Below, piece after piece: positions 3,412-64,000 of a stretch of 64,000 nucleotides of DNA. The first letter of the stretch is position 1. Each line of letters starts with the position of its first letter. Origin of the DNA: Candidatus Thorarchaeota archaeon (GTDB taxonomy: Archaea; Asgardarchaeota; Thorarchaeia; Thorarchaeales; Thorarchaeaceae); contig JAOUFI010000005.1 in NCBI GenBank assembly GCA_029858305.1, positions 18,508 through 82,507 on the forward strand, written 5' to 3'. The translations under genes and the position numbers were made by a program. The notes below the pieces were generated by a model, which made no database searches, was not told the origin of the DNA, and saw only the letters and a program-made list of their open reading frames with translations.

Positions 3412-4236
3412 TTGCGCGTATTAGTTACATCCGAGAAAGATATTGCCAGTCAAACAATCAAGAGCGTTCTAGAAAAGGAATATGGCTTTTCTTTAACCGG
3501 TGAAACCTTTGAAAACAATCCAATCCTTTCATTTGATGATGCTACAATTCTCATCACAACCAATCGCGATATGATATTCTGCGACCATCTTGAGGAGCAT
3601 TTCGATGCTGAGGCATTCATTTTCTGTTCGCGCCATCGGGCTGAGTCTGCAAGACCATCACTGCTTGTCCATAGTACAGGAAATCTTGGGTCTGAAGCAC
3701 TCTTTGGTGGCAATCCCTATGAGGTTTCGATTTCAGCTCCTTCATTAGTAGCTGCAGCTTTGAAACGGCTTACAATTGAACGGAGTGAAAGGAATCTAAA
3801 TGACTTCGATGTTTCGCTTGAAGTCACTCATCACGGACCCACTTCGATGACAGTTCCTCTAGTGTTTGTTGAGCTAGGCAGTACTGAGGAATACTGGATT
3901 CATAAGGAAGGTGCACAAGCTGTAGCTGCTGCTATTATGGATTGTACCAGGGAACCACTCCCTGCAGAATCAGCTATAGGTTTTGGCGGCATGCATTATG
4001 CTAGTAAGTTCAACAAACTAGTGCTCGAAAAGGAGTATAAGATAGGTCATATTGCTCCAAAATATTCCATTAACGAATTGACATTGGAAATCGTAGAGCA
4101 GATGATGACCCGAACAACAGGAAAAGTGACAAAGGCAATTGTTGATTGGAAAGGAATGAATGCTGAAAACAAAGAGCATGTATTTCCACTTCTTGATGAG
4201 TTAAATCTTGAAATTGTACGTGATAAGGATACATAA
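3412..4236 (+). CDS. dtdA: D-aminoacyl-tRNA deacylase, archaeal/plant DtdA (GEK1) type
   Basis: LEVTHHGPTSMTVPLVFVELGSTEEYW and AIGFGGMHYASKFNKLVLEKEYKIGHIAPKY are typical of the DtdA family. Confidence 0.9.
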   Translation: MRVLVTSEKDIASQTIKSVLEKEYGFSLTGETFENNPILSFDDATILITTNRDMIFCDHLEEHFDAEAFIFCSRHRAESARPSLLVHSTGNLGSEALFGGNPYEVSISAPSLVAAALKRLTIERSERNLNDFDVSLEVTHHGPTSMTVPLVFVELGSTEEYWIHKEGAQAVAAAIMDCTREPLPAESAIGFGGMHYASKFNKLVLEKEYKIGHIAPKYSINELTLEIVEQMMTRTTGKVTKAIVDWKGMNAENKEHVFPLLDELNLEIVRDKDT

Positions 4237-56301: not shown

Positions 56302-56350
56302 TTTCGGAAAATCGTAGTGAAAATCTTCCGAATCAACATTCGGAAAATCG
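56302..56350. promoter_or_regulatory. three copies of WTTCGGAARAT upstream of the E2F/DP-like gene
   Basis: TTTCGGAAAATCG at 56302-56314 (+), ATCTTCCGAAT at 56323-56333 (-), ATTCGGAAAATCG at 56338-56350 (+). Confidence 0.65.
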
Positions 56351-56450
56351 AGCTACAAATGGAAGCAATACAAAGCATTAAATATGCCGTGCTTCAATAT
56401 GAAGAAATGTGCTCTTTTGAGCCTATTGCCGGATTGATAAGTGGGGTGCG

Positions 56451-57005
56451 TTGGTGAAGCTAGTTGAATTGGCTCTGGAGTCAGTGAGGATTCTGAAAGA
56501 GGCGGGAGAGGAAGGAATCAAGAGTGATGTTTTAGCTCAATGTCTTGAAACCCCTAAGCGAAGAGTGTATGATATTATTGCAGTATTGAAGGCACTAGGG
56601 CAAGTGGACACAAGTAGAAAATTCGATGGCACCACAATTGTGTGGATTGATCATTCCAAGGATTTTGTTGCTAAACAATCCTATGAAGAGCTAAGATTAC
56701 AACTTGCCCAAGAGAGCGAGGAGCGCAAGCAATTGCAAGTGCAGGTAGCTGAACTAAAGGAGCAACTCAGAATAACGAGATCCAAGCTTCGTAGGGATGT
56801 TCAAGCTGTGGAGATGGCTAACAAAACTGAGTTTTTGACAACGCAGCTACGTGTTCGTGCTCTCTCAAGTAATGGTATCAAACGCGTTAACCAATGTGGT
56901 ATAGAAGTTCTAATTGAGACCCATGAGTCTGGCATGGTTGTCGATCCATCTGAAATTGAAGCAGATGAAAATGAGGAACTTCTGAAGAGTTTGCAAAGGA
57001 CATAG
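56451..57005 (+). CDS. E2F/DP-like winged-helix protein with coiled coil
   Basis: ESVRILKEAGEEGIKSDVLAQCLETPKRRVYDIIAVLKALGQVDTSRKFDGTTIVWIDH then heptad segment EELRLQLAQESEERKQLQVQVAELKEQLR. Confidence 0.8.
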   Translation: MVKLVELALESVRILKEAGEEGIKSDVLAQCLETPKRRVYDIIAVLKALGQVDTSRKFDGTTIVWIDHSKDFVAKQSYEELRLQLAQESEERKQLQVQVAELKEQLRITRSKLRRDVQAVEMANKTEFLTTQLRVRALSSNGIKRVNQCGIEVLIETHESGMVVDPSEIEADENEELLKSLQRT

Positions 57006-57010
57006 GTTCA

Positions 57011-57397
57011 TCAAATTGTCTTAATTTCTACCAGACTCCCTCTTCGTACTTTCCTAAGTTGACTGATTTCATCATCGTCAGTAGTGATTTTTCCTAAGAT
57101 ATTGACCTGACTATAAGTGTGCATATTATCTAAATAGATGCAGAGTGAATCTCCGAGAGGTACATATGCAATATCACCTTTCTTTACATCATTTGTAGGT
57201 TTTGCATTTCCTTTCGAGATGCCGAGCGTAATCTGCATCTCATTGCGAACTACAGCAGCTCTACCTTCTATTGGAAGCCTTGACTTAATCTCTTCAACAA
57301 CAAGCGGGGCGAAGATTCGATTGATAGTTCCCTTAACTATGATGTCATCTTCAAAAATAAATTCAAGACGAATATCTGTATCACTCAAATCTGGCAT
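57011..57397 (-). CDS. cyclophilin-like fold protein (DUF369/TM1367-like)
   Basis: INRIFAPLVVEEIKSRLPIEGRAAVVRNEMQITLGI...KKGDIAYVPLGDSLCIYLD. Confidence 0.75.
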   Translation of the reverse strand: MPDLSDTDIRLEFIFEDDIIVKGTINRIFAPLVVEEIKSRLPIEGRAAVVRNEMQITLGISKGNAKPTNDVKKGDIAYVPLGDSLCIYLDNMHTYSQVNILGKITTDDDEISQLRKVRRGSLVEIKTI

Positions 57398-57471: not shown

Positions 57472-58623
57472 TTGCTAAATTTGGAGAGAATAAGACTGCC
57501 GTCTACAAAACTCGATGTTGCGTTTGTTGTCGACACAACTGGATCGATGAAAGATGATATTAGAGCAGTTAAGGATAGTCTATCCGAAATTGTAAACCAT
57601 ATAACGTCGAGAACGAAGGATCTTGAAATTAGATTTGGTGTTGTTTCATATCGTGATCATCCTCCACAGGATCGATCCTACGTGACTAAGGTATTTGATT
57701 TTACAGACCGTGTGAAGCGAGTCCAGAAACTTATTGCTGATCTTCAACCATCTGAGGGCGGCGACACTCCCGAAGCAGTTGCTGATGGTCTTTTCGATGC
57801 TCGTACCAAACTCTCTTGGGCGAAGGAAGCTTACAAAGTTCTACTTCTTGTGGGAGACGCTCCCCCACATGGAAAGAAATACAATGCAATTGGCGATGAC
57901 TATTTTGCTGATGGATGCCCACATGGATATGATCCAATTGAAGAAGTGCAGCAGTTAAGAAAAGATTTCGGAACGACGATGTTCATTTTCATCTGTGGTT
58001 GTAATCCTCTTGTTGAAACCTCATTCAGGCAGATAGCAGATTCTGTTGATGGTGGCAAATACTATTCCTTGTTAGAAGCTCATGAGCTTCCGGAAGCGAT
58101 ACTCCAGATATTAGAAGGAGTAAGTGATCTCATCGAGGCTGATAGAAAGGTATTGTCATACTATGAATCCAATGACGGTGTGTTCGATATGGGCGAGGCA
58201 GCTTCAACTCTGAATCTTGAAGTTCGAGAGCTGAAAACATCACTCTCTCGGCTTCTCGAATTAGGTAGGATTGTTCGATGGCCAAAGGGGAGACCCCTCT
58301 CGTCTGAGCAAATTGCGATTTCTGTTAAGCTTGGAGATATACCAAATAATATTGTAGCTGGAAAGGCATTCAACTACTCGATGAGAATAAAGAATCCAAG
58401 TGCAGCTGTCGCAGGTATTAGAGTAATTGCGTCTCTTGTTACATCAGACGGCGTATCTGAGGTCACGAATGAACGACATGACATTGCCGCAAAATCTGAT
58501 AAAATGCTCGAGCTAAAGCTTGTTGCAATGACCGATGTCAAAGGTAAGGCATCCTTGCGAATAGAGGTTTTCTACGGTTCAAAGTCTATCGCAACTGAAA
58601 TCTATCCGACCCGGATTTATTAA
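57472..58623 (+). CDS. vWA domain protein with intact MIDAS, plus wHTH-like and beta-rich C-terminal region
   Basis: LDVAFVVDTTGSMKDDIRAVKDSLSEIV; SEGGDTPEAVADGLFDA; VLLLVGDAPPHGKKY. Confidence 0.9.
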   Translation: MLNLERIRLPSTKLDVAFVVDTTGSMKDDIRAVKDSLSEIVNHITSRTKDLEIRFGVVSYRDHPPQDRSYVTKVFDFTDRVKRVQKLIADLQPSEGGDTPEAVADGLFDARTKLSWAKEAYKVLLLVGDAPPHGKKYNAIGDDYFADGCPHGYDPIEEVQQLRKDFGTTMFIFICGCNPLVETSFRQIADSVDGGKYYSLLEAHELPEAILQILEGVSDLIEADRKVLSYYESNDGVFDMGEAASTLNLEVRELKTSLSRLLELGRIVRWPKGRPLSSEQIAISVKLGDIPNNIVAGKAFNYSMRIKNPSAAVAGIRVIASLVTSDGVSEVTNERHDIAAKSDKMLELKLVAMTDVKGKASLRIEVFYGSKSIATEIYPTRIY

Positions 58624-58636
58624 AGGAGGCCTCTCA

Positions 58637-59791
58637 GTGAATCTCAAAGCCAAAGAGGGCAAAAATCAGAAGGGGCTCTGTTTCGTATCTGATGAAGAAT
58701 CTGATTTTGAAAGAGGAGTATACGAAATCCAATTCAGAGGAAAAACAATACTTGCAGATGTCCGGAAATCCCCACACATCCCAAAAGGAATAACAATTCT
58801 AGATAGCAGACTATTTTCCTATTTGGATTGCGATGATGCCTCTGAACTGACTTTCATCAAGAGTTCATCTGATATTCCTATATGTAAGGAACTTAGGTTA
58901 TCAGTTTCATCAATGAGGAAATTGGATAACAAGTCAATTGTAGTGGCAATTTCTAAGAGGATTAATGACCTTCAAGACGATTTTGAAGGATTAATACTTC
59001 AAGAGAATCAAAGAATTATAGTGGACCGTCTTGGGATACAATTCACAGTGCATTCGATTAGTCCAATAAATGGATCATGCGAATCGTGTCGTATCATATG
59101 GAATCAATTGGAAAAGGTACACCTTGCACCTATCGTTGGAATTCCAACCTACAACCTCATTTGTGTGATCGAGCTCGCTGCTGCTGCTCACATTAGCGAC
59201 ATCAATCAATCCTCCACCAATGAAAAATCAATGTCTGTTTCAAGATATCATGCAGCTCTCGAAGTACTTGATCAGATTATATCGAATTACTCTGGATATG
59301 GAACAGACTCACAATTCTCAGGATTCATCTATTCTGATGAGGTGGAAACATTTTCAGTTTTTAATCCTGAGACAGGTGCTCCGGTTGAAATATCTTCGTT
59401 ATATTCCAAATCCTTGTTGGAATCATTCCGTGATTGGATTTGCAGTAGAATCCCTGCTCACAAAAATAAACCATCAAATCCTGGGCAAGCATTGTCTATC
59501 GCTCTTAATCGTGGAAATGATTTCTCGGAAACTAATGAACATCCCACCGTGATTTTTCTATTTTCGTCTGGTGTACATTCTCATGGTCCTAATCCTGTCA
59601 AGGAAGTGAAGAAGAGTCTGGAAAATCGTGCGATTCCAGTTTTCTGTGTATCCCTCGGAGCTGGTTCAAACAAGGATATCTTGGGAGAAATTGCCACAAT
59701 CACAAAAGGAGCCTTGATTAGTATCAACTCAATGAGCGATATAGCCAAAATTAATGATATAATTGAACAGCATTTTGAAAATAGGAGCTGA
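58637..59791 (+). CDS. vWA-like protein with degenerate MIDAS and N-terminal beta-rich domain
   Basis: ICVIELAAAAHISD at the MIDAS position; PTVIFLFSSGVHSHGPNPVKEVKKSLENRAIPVFCVSLGAGSNKDILGEIATITKGALISI; GTG start with GGAGG 7 nt upstream. Confidence 0.75.
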   Translation: MNLKAKEGKNQKGLCFVSDEESDFERGVYEIQFRGKTILADVRKSPHIPKGITILDSRLFSYLDCDDASELTFIKSSSDIPICKELRLSVSSMRKLDNKSIVVAISKRINDLQDDFEGLILQENQRIIVDRLGIQFTVHSISPINGSCESCRIIWNQLEKVHLAPIVGIPTYNLICVIELAAAAHISDINQSSTNEKSMSVSRYHAALEVLDQIISNYSGYGTDSQFSGFIYSDEVETFSVFNPETGAPVEISSLYSKSLLESFRDWICSRIPAHKNKPSNPGQALSIALNRGNDFSETNEHPTVIFLFSSGVHSHGPNPVKEVKKSLENRAIPVFCVSLGAGSNKDILGEIATITKGALISINSMSDIAKINDIIEQHFENRS

Positions 59792-59796
59792 CTTAG

Positions 59797-60954
59797 ATGA
59801 CTGATGATTTACCAACGCACCTTCAAGCACTATATCATAGTGGAAGTGTATCAGGATTCATCTCCGCAAGAATGCCTTCAGAAAAGCTCACGACCGGTTG
59901 GATAGAACAAGGTCTTCTTCAGAAAGCTCTCACTGGAAAACTGCAGGATAAGAAGAACCAAGAACAACTAATCATTCCTGCAGATCGGTTTGCTCGCTTA
60001 ACTAGAGACCTCGAAGGTACAACCCATTCTTTTGTCGGCTTGTTAATCATAGGCCGCAGAGGTCTCACAGAGCCAAAGCTCAACGTTCTTGTTTACGCTG
60101 CTCCTGATAATAGTAATGAATCTATGACAACAGTTGCTTTCTGGACAAAAAACCTGAGTCCGACTGAAACTATTCGCACTATCGCGCGTCATGCTTTTGC
60201 CCGAGATAGTTTCATGGAAAGTTCTGAGCCTGATTTAGATTACATTGAGCAGCTTAAAGCTGATATTTCGACAGGCTTAGTTCAAAATCTATTATCTCTT
60301 CGAGTAAAAACAGGAAAACGGAATATTACTGAATGGCTTCGTGATTCCATTAGAAATGTAGACGACTCCAAGGATGTGATTGCCTATGCTGGCAAACTTG
60401 AGAGTCTCTCGAGAATTGCTCTTCTCCTCTCTCGGTGGATTACAAGCTTAGGTCTTTTCAAAGAGTATGAAGATAATATTGCAGCTATTCTCATGAAGTT
60501 TGAGAATAGGATGGAGTTATGTCTTTGGGACAATTCACAGAACTTCGCTACATTTGCGACTATCAAAGGGACTGATATTGAGCATACAGTAAAAGGTTAC
60601 ATTTCGGCAATGTGGGCTGATAAACAGGATTTGGCTGCTTCGAAATCACGGATGCCTGAAGTTGTGATTGCGACAGAAAAGCAAATCGAATCCACTTCAA
60701 AGAAATCAAGAACCGAGGTATTGCCTGAAAGAACAATTGTGTCGCTAAGTGAGATTGAACAAAGAATTGAAGCTCTGGAATCTACGATTCGCACTCTTGC
60801 TAGTTCAAACAAAGAACAGCCTACAAATATTGACCAATCAATTTCAATTGTACACACTCGTTTGGTCGAAATTATTGACCGGTTGGCAAATCTGACAACC
60901 AGATTTAATGAATTGGAAAAGAAACTGAACAGCGTAGGCAAAAGCGGACGGTGA
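59797..60954 (+). CDS. uncharacterised protein with C-terminal coiled coil
   Basis: 385 aa; C-term IEQRIEALESTIRTLASSNKEQ...RLVEIIDRLANLTTRFNELEKKLN. Confidence 0.7.
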   Translation: MTDDLPTHLQALYHSGSVSGFISARMPSEKLTTGWIEQGLLQKALTGKLQDKKNQEQLIIPADRFARLTRDLEGTTHSFVGLLIIGRRGLTEPKLNVLVYAAPDNSNESMTTVAFWTKNLSPTETIRTIARHAFARDSFMESSEPDLDYIEQLKADISTGLVQNLLSLRVKTGKRNITEWLRDSIRNVDDSKDVIAYAGKLESLSRIALLLSRWITSLGLFKEYEDNIAAILMKFENRMELCLWDNSQNFATFATIKGTDIEHTVKGYISAMWADKQDLAASKSRMPEVVIATEKQIESTSKKSRTEVLPERTIVSLSEIEQRIEALESTIRTLASSNKEQPTNIDQSISIVHTRLVEIIDRLANLTTRFNELEKKLNSVGKSGR

Positions 60955-60961
60955 TAGGCAA

Positions 60962-61249
60962 ATGACTCGACGTCCTGATGAAATAGTTGATGAACTCAAG
61001 CGCATTGAAAAGAATCCACAAATTCTTGAAACTTTATCGAATAGACTTGGAATGGTGGAGAGTAAAATAGAAGAAGTTACTCTATCAAAATCCATGAAAT
61101 CGTCTTTCAATGCTGAAAATATTCAGGAAATTGTATCAAAGATTTCTGCACTTCGTGATTTGATTGATAAGATAGAAGTCGAAATTGAACAATTGAATTC
61201 AAGGATTAATGAGATTGAAACCCTGAGGTTCAAACATCGCTCTCGTTAA
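60962..61249 (+). CDS. small coiled-coil protein
   Basis: 95 aa, IVSKISALRDLIDKIEVEIEQLNSRINEIETLR. Confidence 0.65.
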   Translation: MTRRPDEIVDELKRIEKNPQILETLSNRLGMVESKIEEVTLSKSMKSSFNAENIQEIVSKISALRDLIDKIEVEIEQLNSRINEIETLRFKHRSR

Positions 61250-63893
61250 TAGAGCCTACCGGCACTAAATCATCAATTATGTCGAGTATGTGACCTATAA
61301 ATATTTGAGAGGAAAAATTCTCTAGAGGCACGATCTTTGCGTTTATCCCTTTTAGAACTCGTAATGAGCTACGATGATTTATGTTCTTCTCCATAGCCAT
61401 AAACTCGATTTGATATCTCTCTCGTTGTTTGATTGCTTGGATGAAAGGAAGATGTTCCTCATCATATTTACCGACCCCTCCTGAGAAGATGAGCAAGAGT
61501 GTCGGTCGAGCGGCTCCAAAATCCTCTAGATATTCAGCAATCGATCGATATGCTCCTACCGTGTCTTCTTGACCTCCTGTATCATTCACAGTATCAAGAA
61601 TAGAGTAGACTAATGAAACTAAAACTTCCTCCGATTGCAGATCTCCTAGGAATTCCACATATGAGCGTATTTCATCACCATGCTGAACTGAGAATTTCTC
61701 TGGAACTTCAGCAAAAGTAACGAACCCAAGTCTACCTTCGGTCTGGTTATGCCGAAGAGTATTCACAACCAAAAGAGAAGCCAGTGCTGCAATCTCAGAT
61801 CTTGTCGCATTGGGTGTTAGACCGTTAAGGAAAGTCTTGAGCTCCTGGATGTTGTTGGATAAGGCTTCAAGTTCCTGAGCTGCGGAATGCAAAGTCTTCA
61901 AGGATATATCACGTTTGCTCATATCCTTCCCCTTTGAGATACATATTACAACATTCATTTCTCTAAATGCTTGACTTGGTCTGAGAAAAGCACTCTCAGC
62001 GGGAACTACTCCTATCTGTTCTGAACCTAGTTGAGGTTCAGTCTGAGTGATGGCGAGAGTTAAAGGAATCTTCTTGGATCCCACAAATAACTTTGAATTA
62101 ATGCCGATAAGCTTGTTTCTGATGCGGTTTAAGATTTTCTTCTCATTTAGATGGATGTAGGAGAATAGTTCCGAATTTGTCATGGGCTTCTCTGATAGAT
62201 AGGACATCACAATTTTACGAATTTTGGAAATCTGACCTTCAAATTTGACAATATTGACAACTGATGAATTACTAAAACCATAAATTTCAGCATCATTTTC
62301 AGAAATAACTATTGATTTTTCAGTGCATCTAACATGCTCTCTTACAGAACCTGCACACCACCTTCCTGTTCGCGTACCTAATGCAAGTACATAGTCATCC
62401 CCTGACACTCCAATTGTTTCCATATCTGAAGGACACATAAGGAATATTCCTGGTTCTGTCTTAGCAATCTCAACTCCAAAATGAAGGGCTGCCATGATTT
62501 CATTTGGATTCCTAACTTGAAGGCATGAAAGCAATGCGTTATCGAACCGAACAAGTTGGGCAGGTGAGCCAAAGATGGGACCATCAAGTTTTGCATTTGC
62601 ACGTACTAATGTGTGAAGTAGTAAACTATCTCTCTTTGATACGCTCTCAGTAAATGCTTTACTCCACCCTGAGATCATCACTACACCATTCTTCTCCAGA
62701 ATAAGTGAGATGCTTGTTGCTTTTTCACTGTTAGGCTCATTTACTGTAACAACAGCACTGTCAAGATGTACTACTCCTCCTTCATCATTGACCATATGAT
62801 CAACAGAGAGCACTCTCATTATCTTTTTTGCATCTAATAATTGCAATATTCTAACAAGCTCATTCATCGCTGCCTTTCCGAGAGATTCCTCTGCCAAGAC
62901 TGATGATTTATTCTCTGAATAGACAACAAATGGCGGTCTTGGAGGTAATAGTGCCAATAGATTTCCTCCAAGAATTCTCTGGATCTCTTCAGCTGTTGCT
63001 GATAGATTTCTGCTAAGAAGGTAACTGACAATTTCGGATAGACTGTCTCCCAATTGTGTTTCAGGATATGATGAGGCGAACATAAGACGCCTAGACCATA
63101 AAGCATCACTCTGTTCTTTTTTCAGATGCCTGATTATTGTCGAGAGTGAGGATATTGATGCGCCTGCAGTAAGAAGTCGACTCTCTGGAATATCAAGAAG
63201 TCGGGTGATATCTCTCCCCCAATCTTTCTGACTCCGCGCCTTTAGTATTAACTTCGGAGTTTTTAGACCTGCTTCTTTTAAGAGAACCAGCCACCCAATA
63301 AGTGAGTCTAGGCAATCAGGAGAGTTTAATTCAATGAATATTGGTCTCTCGGATTTAATATGCGATAGCAAGTCAGTACGATTGGGCCCCCTAAGCGATT
63401 GTGACAAGTCTGCTGCACGTAGAATGCATCCCCAGCCTGTGGGTGTTCTACGGTTAAGTCTCATGTCCTGTAAGTGATATAACCTTGGACTTGTCGGTGG
63501 AATTGTTGACCAGATATGAACTGATTCCGTATTCGCTCTCTGTTGCGCAATTGGGAGCTTTGTTTCCCCCAACTCGATTAAAGGCTTTACAACAAGAAAA
63601 TCTACGAGCCAGCTTGATTTGGATAGCTCAGATGCTCCCTGCATAAAATCGCTAAGAAGTCGAGGTACTTTTAGATAGTCATAGGCTCTTCTAGGAAGGT
63701 ACTTGAAGGCTCCAGGATATTGCGCAGCAAAATCATGAAGCTGATTCTCAACCATATTGAAATATGAAAAGGCTCTGTCTGGATCAAATTTTCTGATGTA
63801 AGTCCCTGCACGTACGATACCGAGTTGTATTGATGCGTCAACGACAACGAAGCGACGAATCTCGTTTACTTCAATGTCTTCAACAACGATCAT
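61230..63893 (-). CDS. multidomain protein: degenerate amidohydrolase-like barrel + middle beta domain + C-terminal degenerate vWA
   Basis: VVVDASIQLG; RLMFASSYPETQLGDSLSEIVSYLLSRNLSATAEEIQRILGGNLLALLPPRP; MNVVICISKGKDMSKRDISLKTLHSAAQELEAL...RPTLLLIFSGGV. Start at ATG 63893 preferred (GAGGT 7 nt upstream) over 63944. Confidence 0.75.
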   Translation of the reverse strand: MIVVEDIEVNEIRRFVVVDASIQLGIVRAGTYIRKFDPDRAFSYFNMVENQLHDFAAQYPGAFKYLPRRAYDYLKVPRLLSDFMQGASELSKSSWLVDFLVVKPLIELGETKLPIAQQRANTESVHIWSTIPPTSPRLYHLQDMRLNRRTPTGWGCILRAADLSQSLRGPNRTDLLSHIKSERPIFIELNSPDCLDSLIGWLVLLKEAGLKTPKLILKARSQKDWGRDITRLLDIPESRLLTAGASISSLSTIIRHLKKEQSDALWSRRLMFASSYPETQLGDSLSEIVSYLLSRNLSATAEEIQRILGGNLLALLPPRPPFVVYSENKSSVLAEESLGKAAMNELVRILQLLDAKKIMRVLSVDHMVNDEGGVVHLDSAVVTVNEPNSEKATSISLILEKNGVVMISGWSKAFTESVSKRDSLLLHTLVRANAKLDGPIFGSPAQLVRFDNALLSCLQVRNPNEIMAALHFGVEIAKTEPGIFLMCPSDMETIGVSGDDYVLALGTRTGRWCAGSVREHVRCTEKSIVISENDAEIYGFSNSSVVNIVKFEGQISKIRKIVMSYLSEKPMTNSELFSYIHLNEKKILNRIRNKLIGINSKLFVGSKKIPLTLAITQTEPQLGSEQIGVVPAESAFLRPSQAFREMNVVICISKGKDMSKRDISLKTLHSAAQELEALSNNIQELKTFLNGLTPNATRSEIAALASLLVVNTLRHNQTEGRLGFVTFAEVPEKFSVQHGDEIRSYVEFLGDLQSEEVLVSLVYSILDTVNDTGGQEDTVGAYRSIAEYLEDFGAARPTLLLIFSGGVGKYDEEHLPFIQAIKQRERYQIEFMAMEKNINHRSSLRVLKGINAKIVPLENFSSQIFIGHILDIIDDLVPVGSINESDV

Positions 63894-64000
63894 GATTACG
63901 ACCTCGGTAGCTATGGATTTCTCTGCAGGAGATGATATATGCATAGTGCCGATAGTAATCTAAATGATTTTTCAGTGAAAAACGCAATACTTTATCACGC

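Follow-up and report, generated by a model that had tools for sequence, protein, structure and literature searches.

Does replication control by E2F predate eukaryotes? Entry into S phase in plants and animals depends on E2F as its master switch, which turns on the genes of DNA replication. The locus described here raises the question from the archaeal side. It lies in a 64,000-nucleotide stretch (hereafter the window, i.e., the whole stretch that was analysed) of a 3.04 Mb Candidatus Thorarchaeota genome, and an initial annotation proposed that one of its genes encodes a homologue of the eukaryotic E2F/DP transcription factors. Asgard E2F as such is already known: the 2024 review 'The Archaeal Cell Cycle' (PMC7617429), with reference to Spang 2015 and Zaremba-Niedzwiedzka 2017, states that homologues of E2F occur in Asgard genomes, and these are very probably the same family as this gene. 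The statement in that review comes without sequences, promoter elements, C-terminal analysis or a partner search. In the literature we searched, we found no account of the synteny, the promoter elements, the absence of Rb and DP or the C-terminal resemblance reported below.

The open reading frame, with its neighbours and promoter, is laid out in Table 1. Its first codon is TTG (56451), but the N-terminus MKL is conserved in the alignment of 36 Asgard relatives, which favours GTG 56454 as the start codon. AlphaFold models the full protein with a mean pLDDT of 89.5 and predicts, in order, a winged helix, a 42-residue helix, four strands and a closing helix. Confidence is about 95 around the recognition helix, and RRVYD sits at the start of that helix.

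Table 1. Features of the e2f locus, in window coordinates.
Feature	Position	Strand	Basis
Gene of the E2F family (184 aa), probably starting at GTG 56454	56451..57005	+	ORF list; Pfam E2F_TDP; MKL start in relatives
Winged-helix DNA-binding domain, residues 4-65	56460..56645	+	AlphaFold pLDDT mostly >90; E2F_TDP match; PDB profile match to E2F8/E2F4/DP2
RRVYD motif, residues 37-41, within recognition helix (residues 36-48)	56559..56573	+	Conservation; model; alignment with E2F4 and DP2
Long amphipathic helix/predicted coiled coil, residues 75-116	56673..56798	+	AlphaFold models
Small C-terminal four-stranded domain, residues 132-167	56844..56951	+	Models; alignment; Foldseek to 2AZE
C-terminal helix, residues 173-183	56967..56999	+	Model
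Promoter element TTCGGAAAATCG, distal copy (-148)	56303..56314	+	Promoter comparison; genome-wide copy count
Proximal copy of TTCGGAAAATCG (-112), 36 bp downstream of the distal copy	56339..56350	+	Promoter comparison
Inverted half-element CTTCCGAA between the two TTCGGAAAATCG copies	56325..56332	-	Sequence
BRE/TATA-like box ACAAAGCATTAAATA at -73 (inferred assignment)	56370..56384	+	Sequence; -73 to -78 in relatives
Convergent neighbour, cyclophilin-like PF04126 (50.3 bits)	57011..57397	-	Pfam
Divergent neighbour, CobW/HypB/UreG-type nucleotide-binding domain PF02492	54809..56152	-	Pfam

The case for E2F/DP membership rests on the DNA-binding domain. Taken singly, the protein matches Pfam E2F_TDP at 32.8 bits (E=5.9e-8, residues 12-66), above the curated cut-off of 25.7 bits, and its first 70 residues alone reach 35.5 bits. 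E2F_TDP is matched by all 36 Asgard relatives at E<=1 (best 4.5e-11) and is the sole Pfam family common to every one of them, a level of matching far beyond chance. Among these relatives R37, R38 and D41 never vary, nor do G22 and W65, and Y40 is kept in at least 90%; in E2F/DP, RRXYD is described as invariant and as reading the GCGC core (PMC4862756). When a profile of the 36 relatives was searched against 177,635 distinct PDB sequences, the ranking was E2F8 (2.5e-11), E2F4 (4.5e-7) and DP2 (0.014), with the next chain at 0.21, the alignment pairing RRVYD with RRIYD in E2F4 and with RRVYD in DP2. The PDB is rich in winged helices, and for this reason we regard that order as the strongest evidence of membership. 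By its DNA-binding domain, then, the protein is a well-supported member of the E2F/DP superfamily, and the initial annotation is supported both in calling the protein an archaeal homologue of E2F and in reading RRVYD as the recognition signature. The outcome that the annotation named as its refutation, a generic archaeal winged helix as best profile match with no E2F_TDP hit and with RRVYD outside the recognition helix, is the opposite of what was observed.

The remainder of the protein is harder to place. Searched against Pfam and the PDB, an alignment of residues 70-184 from 27 relatives did not match the E2F coiled-coil/marked-box by sequence, and the long helix matches generic coiled-coil Pfam families only. 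We also compared structures: the C-terminal part modelled alone (pLDDT 82.7) returned 24 Foldseek matches with E<=10 from 350,542 PDB chains, and ranks 2 and 3 were chains B and A of 2AZE (E 0.72 and 1.1), the Rb C-terminal domain bound to the E2F1-DP1 heterodimer. We take chain B to be E2F1 and chain A to be DP1. The superposition is poor (TM-score 0.24-0.30, high rmsd), and the model shares with 2AZE a predicted helix-then-beta topology but has a smaller beta domain. Although each match is insignificant alone, the hypothesis predicted both chains and a double match is hard to call chance, so the modelled likeness is suggestive only. The earlier description of a heptad coiled coil and small C-terminal domain 'as in E2F/DP' thus holds for the predicted topology and fails for sequence. 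Some relatives (L016, L030, L071, L072) are without the coiled coil in the alignment and retain the beta domain.

Both partners of eukaryotic E2F, DP and Rb, were looked for. A single E2F_TDP match was found in 73 of the 79 positive genomes, i.e., a DP-like second subunit is not consistent across them, and a DP partner as a general feature was rejected since only 6 carry a second copy. Profile RB_B matched in 176 genomes, but three of the four best matches read as TFB (zinc ribbon plus cyclin repeats); these were rejected as Rb because those inspected read as TFB-type, and no Rb pocket protein was detected with this profile. Neither partner defines the whole family in eukaryotes: E2F7/8 act without DP, so the E2F+DP heterodimer is not defining for all members, and pocket-protein regulation is typical of E2F1-5, not of E2F6-8. 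Given the single E2F_TDP copies and the TFB-like nature of the RB_B matches inspected, we infer by default a homodimer that acts without a pocket protein.

Of the 228 genomes examined from the phylum, 76 have an E2F_TDP match that exceeds the cut-off; none of 14 control genomes does. Large families are mostly without it (f20, 1 of 65 over the cut-off; f6, 0 of 23), and the window's own family is positive in 41 of 47 genomes from many independent metagenomes. One peptide pattern found 50 confirmed relatives among 85,462 species, all of them Asgard-type or unlabelled archaeal records: the labels are Thor, Hel, Baldr, Odin, Sif, Sigyn, Heimdall, Jord and Frey, along with one Loki-labelled record that has a Thor-like copy and two labelled only 'archaeon'. 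In the searches made, the family is confined to Asgard archaea. One peptide pattern likewise found no relative in 2.9 million viral contigs, and a viral origin was rejected on this basis. A tree of 52 proteins groups by taxonomic family, needing 12 changes for 13 groups, which is the minimum. Synteny is conserved as well: the PF04126 gene is the most conserved neighbour of Asgard e2f, lying downstream in 30 of 41 loci and common to Thor, Hel, Baldr, Jord/Frey, Sigyn, Sif and f3 loci, while the divergent PF02492 gene (21 of 41 loci) is conserved within Thorarchaeota and has its intergenic region in common with e2f. With wide presence in families, a family-wise tree and conserved synteny, the e2f gene is old and vertically inherited, with losses, and is not contamination.

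The e2f promoter of Thorarchaeota carries a repeated element, TTCGRAAAATCG (hereafter the Thor element), which has only three exact copies in the window's genome, two of them upstream of the gene described here. It is not the canonical E2F box. A strict form occurs in 23 of 34 Thor e2f promoters, where the proximal copy mostly starts at -101 to -117; the TATA-like box follows some 25-30 bp further on, at about -75. The position and copy number of the element are the most conserved features of the promoter. An unbiased count gave CGAAAAATCG as the most widely shared 10-mer (9 of 18 protein clusters), and CGNAAAATCG is present in 17 of 27 promoters against 0.13 expected by simulation, a comparison in which the rows are related to one another. 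Across the 47 genomes of the family, the element's 12-mer occurs 111 times versus about 15 for reversed-pattern controls. The same comparison by family for TCGAAAAATCGA gave 76 versus 9 in f1, 27 versus 6 in f19 and 24 versus 2 in f21, and 87 versus 90 in f20, 21 versus 23 in f6 and 6 versus 4 in f8. The Thor element is therefore enriched in f19 and f21, which are mostly without E2F, whereas f8, a Heimdall family that has E2F, shows no enrichment. Because enrichment does not track E2F cleanly across families, the element may be bound by another factor; E2F is one candidate. A regulon read from the Thor element was rejected, one-mismatch sites being mostly inside genes, and an RFC-like gene was rejected as a target, its site not being conserved in 23 relatives.

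A different sequence marks the e2f promoters of a Baldr/Odin-labelled genus (f4). They contain TTGGCGCC, a canonical E2F box, in one case as the palindrome ATTTGGCGCCAAT. We spotted TTGGCGCC by eye, yet the consensus, GCGSSAAA (TTTSSCGC), is fixed independently by the literature (PMC4862756). In one Baldr genome (G003), nearly all the TTGGCGCC sites inspected fall inside genes. Only three are intergenic, of which two mark the promoters of the genome's two e2f paralogues. The box is enriched in Baldr genomes, yet almost all sites are coding, and a regulon read from it was rejected. Canonical TTGGCGCC was found in 0 of 27 Thor e2f promoters, and neither it nor the Thor element turned up upstream of e2f in the Jord, Hel, Heim and Sif lineages that were inspected.

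Few leads emerged on replication targets. In two Thor genera, including the window's genome, the MCM promoters contain TTTGGCGC, which is a canonical E2F box; it stands tens of bases ahead of a TATA-like box and overlaps the last codons of the upstream gene. Since the site lies inside that gene's end, coding constraint may explain it, despite the rarity of CGC (8.6% of Arg codons in the window). The genome of the window has 64 copies of TTTGGCGC versus 18 for controls, 9 of them intergenic, and no clear set of replication genes lies behind these sites beyond the MCM promoter. The MCM-promoter loci with TTTGGCGC are L320 and L379 (G000:C157), L307, L314-L316, L321 and L328.

Judged from its sequence, the protein is most likely a homodimeric, autoregulated transcription factor. 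The account we favour, and think probable, is that it is a vertically inherited Asgard member of the E2F/DP winged-helix family, acting as a homodimer and autoregulated from a site just upstream of the BRE/TATA, a position common for archaeal activators. The coiled coil would hold the homodimer together, each recognition helix would read a CG-containing half-site in the major groove, and the protein would control its own promoter through TTCGRAAAATCG in Thorarchaeota and TTGGCGCC in Baldrarchaeota. A role in the timing of S phase or of replication genes, like that of E2F, is conjectural.

Two alternatives concern what the protein is and where it came from. It could be a generic archaeal winged helix of the TrmB/MarR/ArsR type that acquired RRxYD by convergence, as weak matches to TrmB, second to E2F_TDP in the number of members matched (31 of 36), would allow, and Foldseek with the full model puts Zalpha, ArsR and MarR folds at the top of its list and E2F4 45th. 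Structure comparison of models alone cannot decide among winged helices, however, as expected for a small common fold. Sequence profiles do discriminate: no member fails to match E2F_TDP, which scores above TrmB (E=0.12 in this protein), and against E2F8 at the head of the PDB ranking, non-E2F winged helices do no better than about E 0.8. The generic reading is thus largely refuted, and we consider it very improbable. Contamination by, or recent transfer from, a eukaryote is suggested by E2F_TDP being otherwise a eukaryotic family and by these genomes being metagenome assemblies, but we find it scarcely credible, given the many independent metagenomes that carry the gene, the clade-wise tree, the PF04126 neighbour common to so many lineages, and a gene that is intron-free with an archaeal-type promoter.

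The alternative that weighs most concerns function: a true E2F-family protein that takes no part in replication or the cell cycle and serves instead in local regulation or in stress or signalling responses, the Thor element belonging to another factor, such as one that acts with the CheY-CheY-KaiC-like operon. The same element flanks a non-coding stretch of about 600 bp upstream of a CheY-CheY-KaiC-like operon, its enrichment fails to follow E2F across families, and promoters of the RFC-like gene do not conserve it. Set against this are the conserved position and copy number of the element at e2f itself, and the TTTGGCGC boxes at MCM in two Thor genera, though these fall in the upstream coding end. 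We hold this reading to be somewhat doubtful, if a serious contender. Beyond the homodimeric, autoregulated regulator that we favour, Asgard archaea might preserve the pre-eukaryotic state of E2F, i.e., one gene, a homodimer, a primitive coiled-coil/marked-box, autoregulation via TTGGCGCC (Baldr, where the box would already be the eukaryotic site) or TTCGRAAAATCG (Thor) and MCM as a target. This further step we regard as rather unlikely; were it true, DP, Rb and the E2F paralogues would be later additions.

Compared with eukaryotic E2F/DP (PF02319; E2F4-DP2, 1CF7; E2F8, 4YO2), the Asgard protein is alike in its winged helix, its RRxYD recognition helix, its profile-level homology and the helix/coiled coil and small beta domain that follow. 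It differs in being 184 aa long, in usually having one gene per genome and presumably forming a homodimer rather than E2F+DP, in having no Rb found alongside it and in showing no detectable marked-box sequence homology. The conserved promoter elements make the function of Asgard E2F testable, and a single-gene E2F with candidate binding sites amounts to a testable pre-Rb, pre-DP state.

Several observations stand apart from this argument. Next to e2f, at window positions 57472-63944, is a conserved cluster of von Willebrand A-domain proteins, coiled-coil proteins and a 904-aa protein without a Pfam match, kept across Thorarchaeota genera. Families f12 and f26 (L062, L063, L065, L066) have a divergent E2F_TDP subfamily whose C-terminal domain differs, and their e2f lies tail to tail with a PF01984 (PDCD5-type dsDNA-binding) gene in place of PF04126. 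Canonical E2F-like sites in intergenic DNA are few in the window's genome; one of them is TTTTGGCGCG, 91 bp upstream of a TFB (TFIIB-type) gene (L335, G000:C3:4882). In one Thor genome an actin-like gene has a site of the TTCGAAAAATCG type 95 bp upstream (L271, G195:C10, site at 3718).

The non-coding stretch mentioned above is AT-rich and is flanked in Thorarchaeota by two (G/T)TCGAAAAATCG copies, inverted or direct, about 600 bp apart. It is without clear ORFs (for example G000:C114:1352-1966, L257; also L258, L260, L261, L266, L259 and L231), and the sequence that the paired sites enclose ahead of the CheY operon gave no Rfam match. The stretch is a candidate replication origin or non-coding RNA. 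It often lies upstream of the CheY-CheY-KaiC-like response-regulator operon, in many Thor genomes, and the three loci read share a similar core, TAGCAGTACAC...GAGTATG, between the paired (G/T)TCGAAAAATCG sites.
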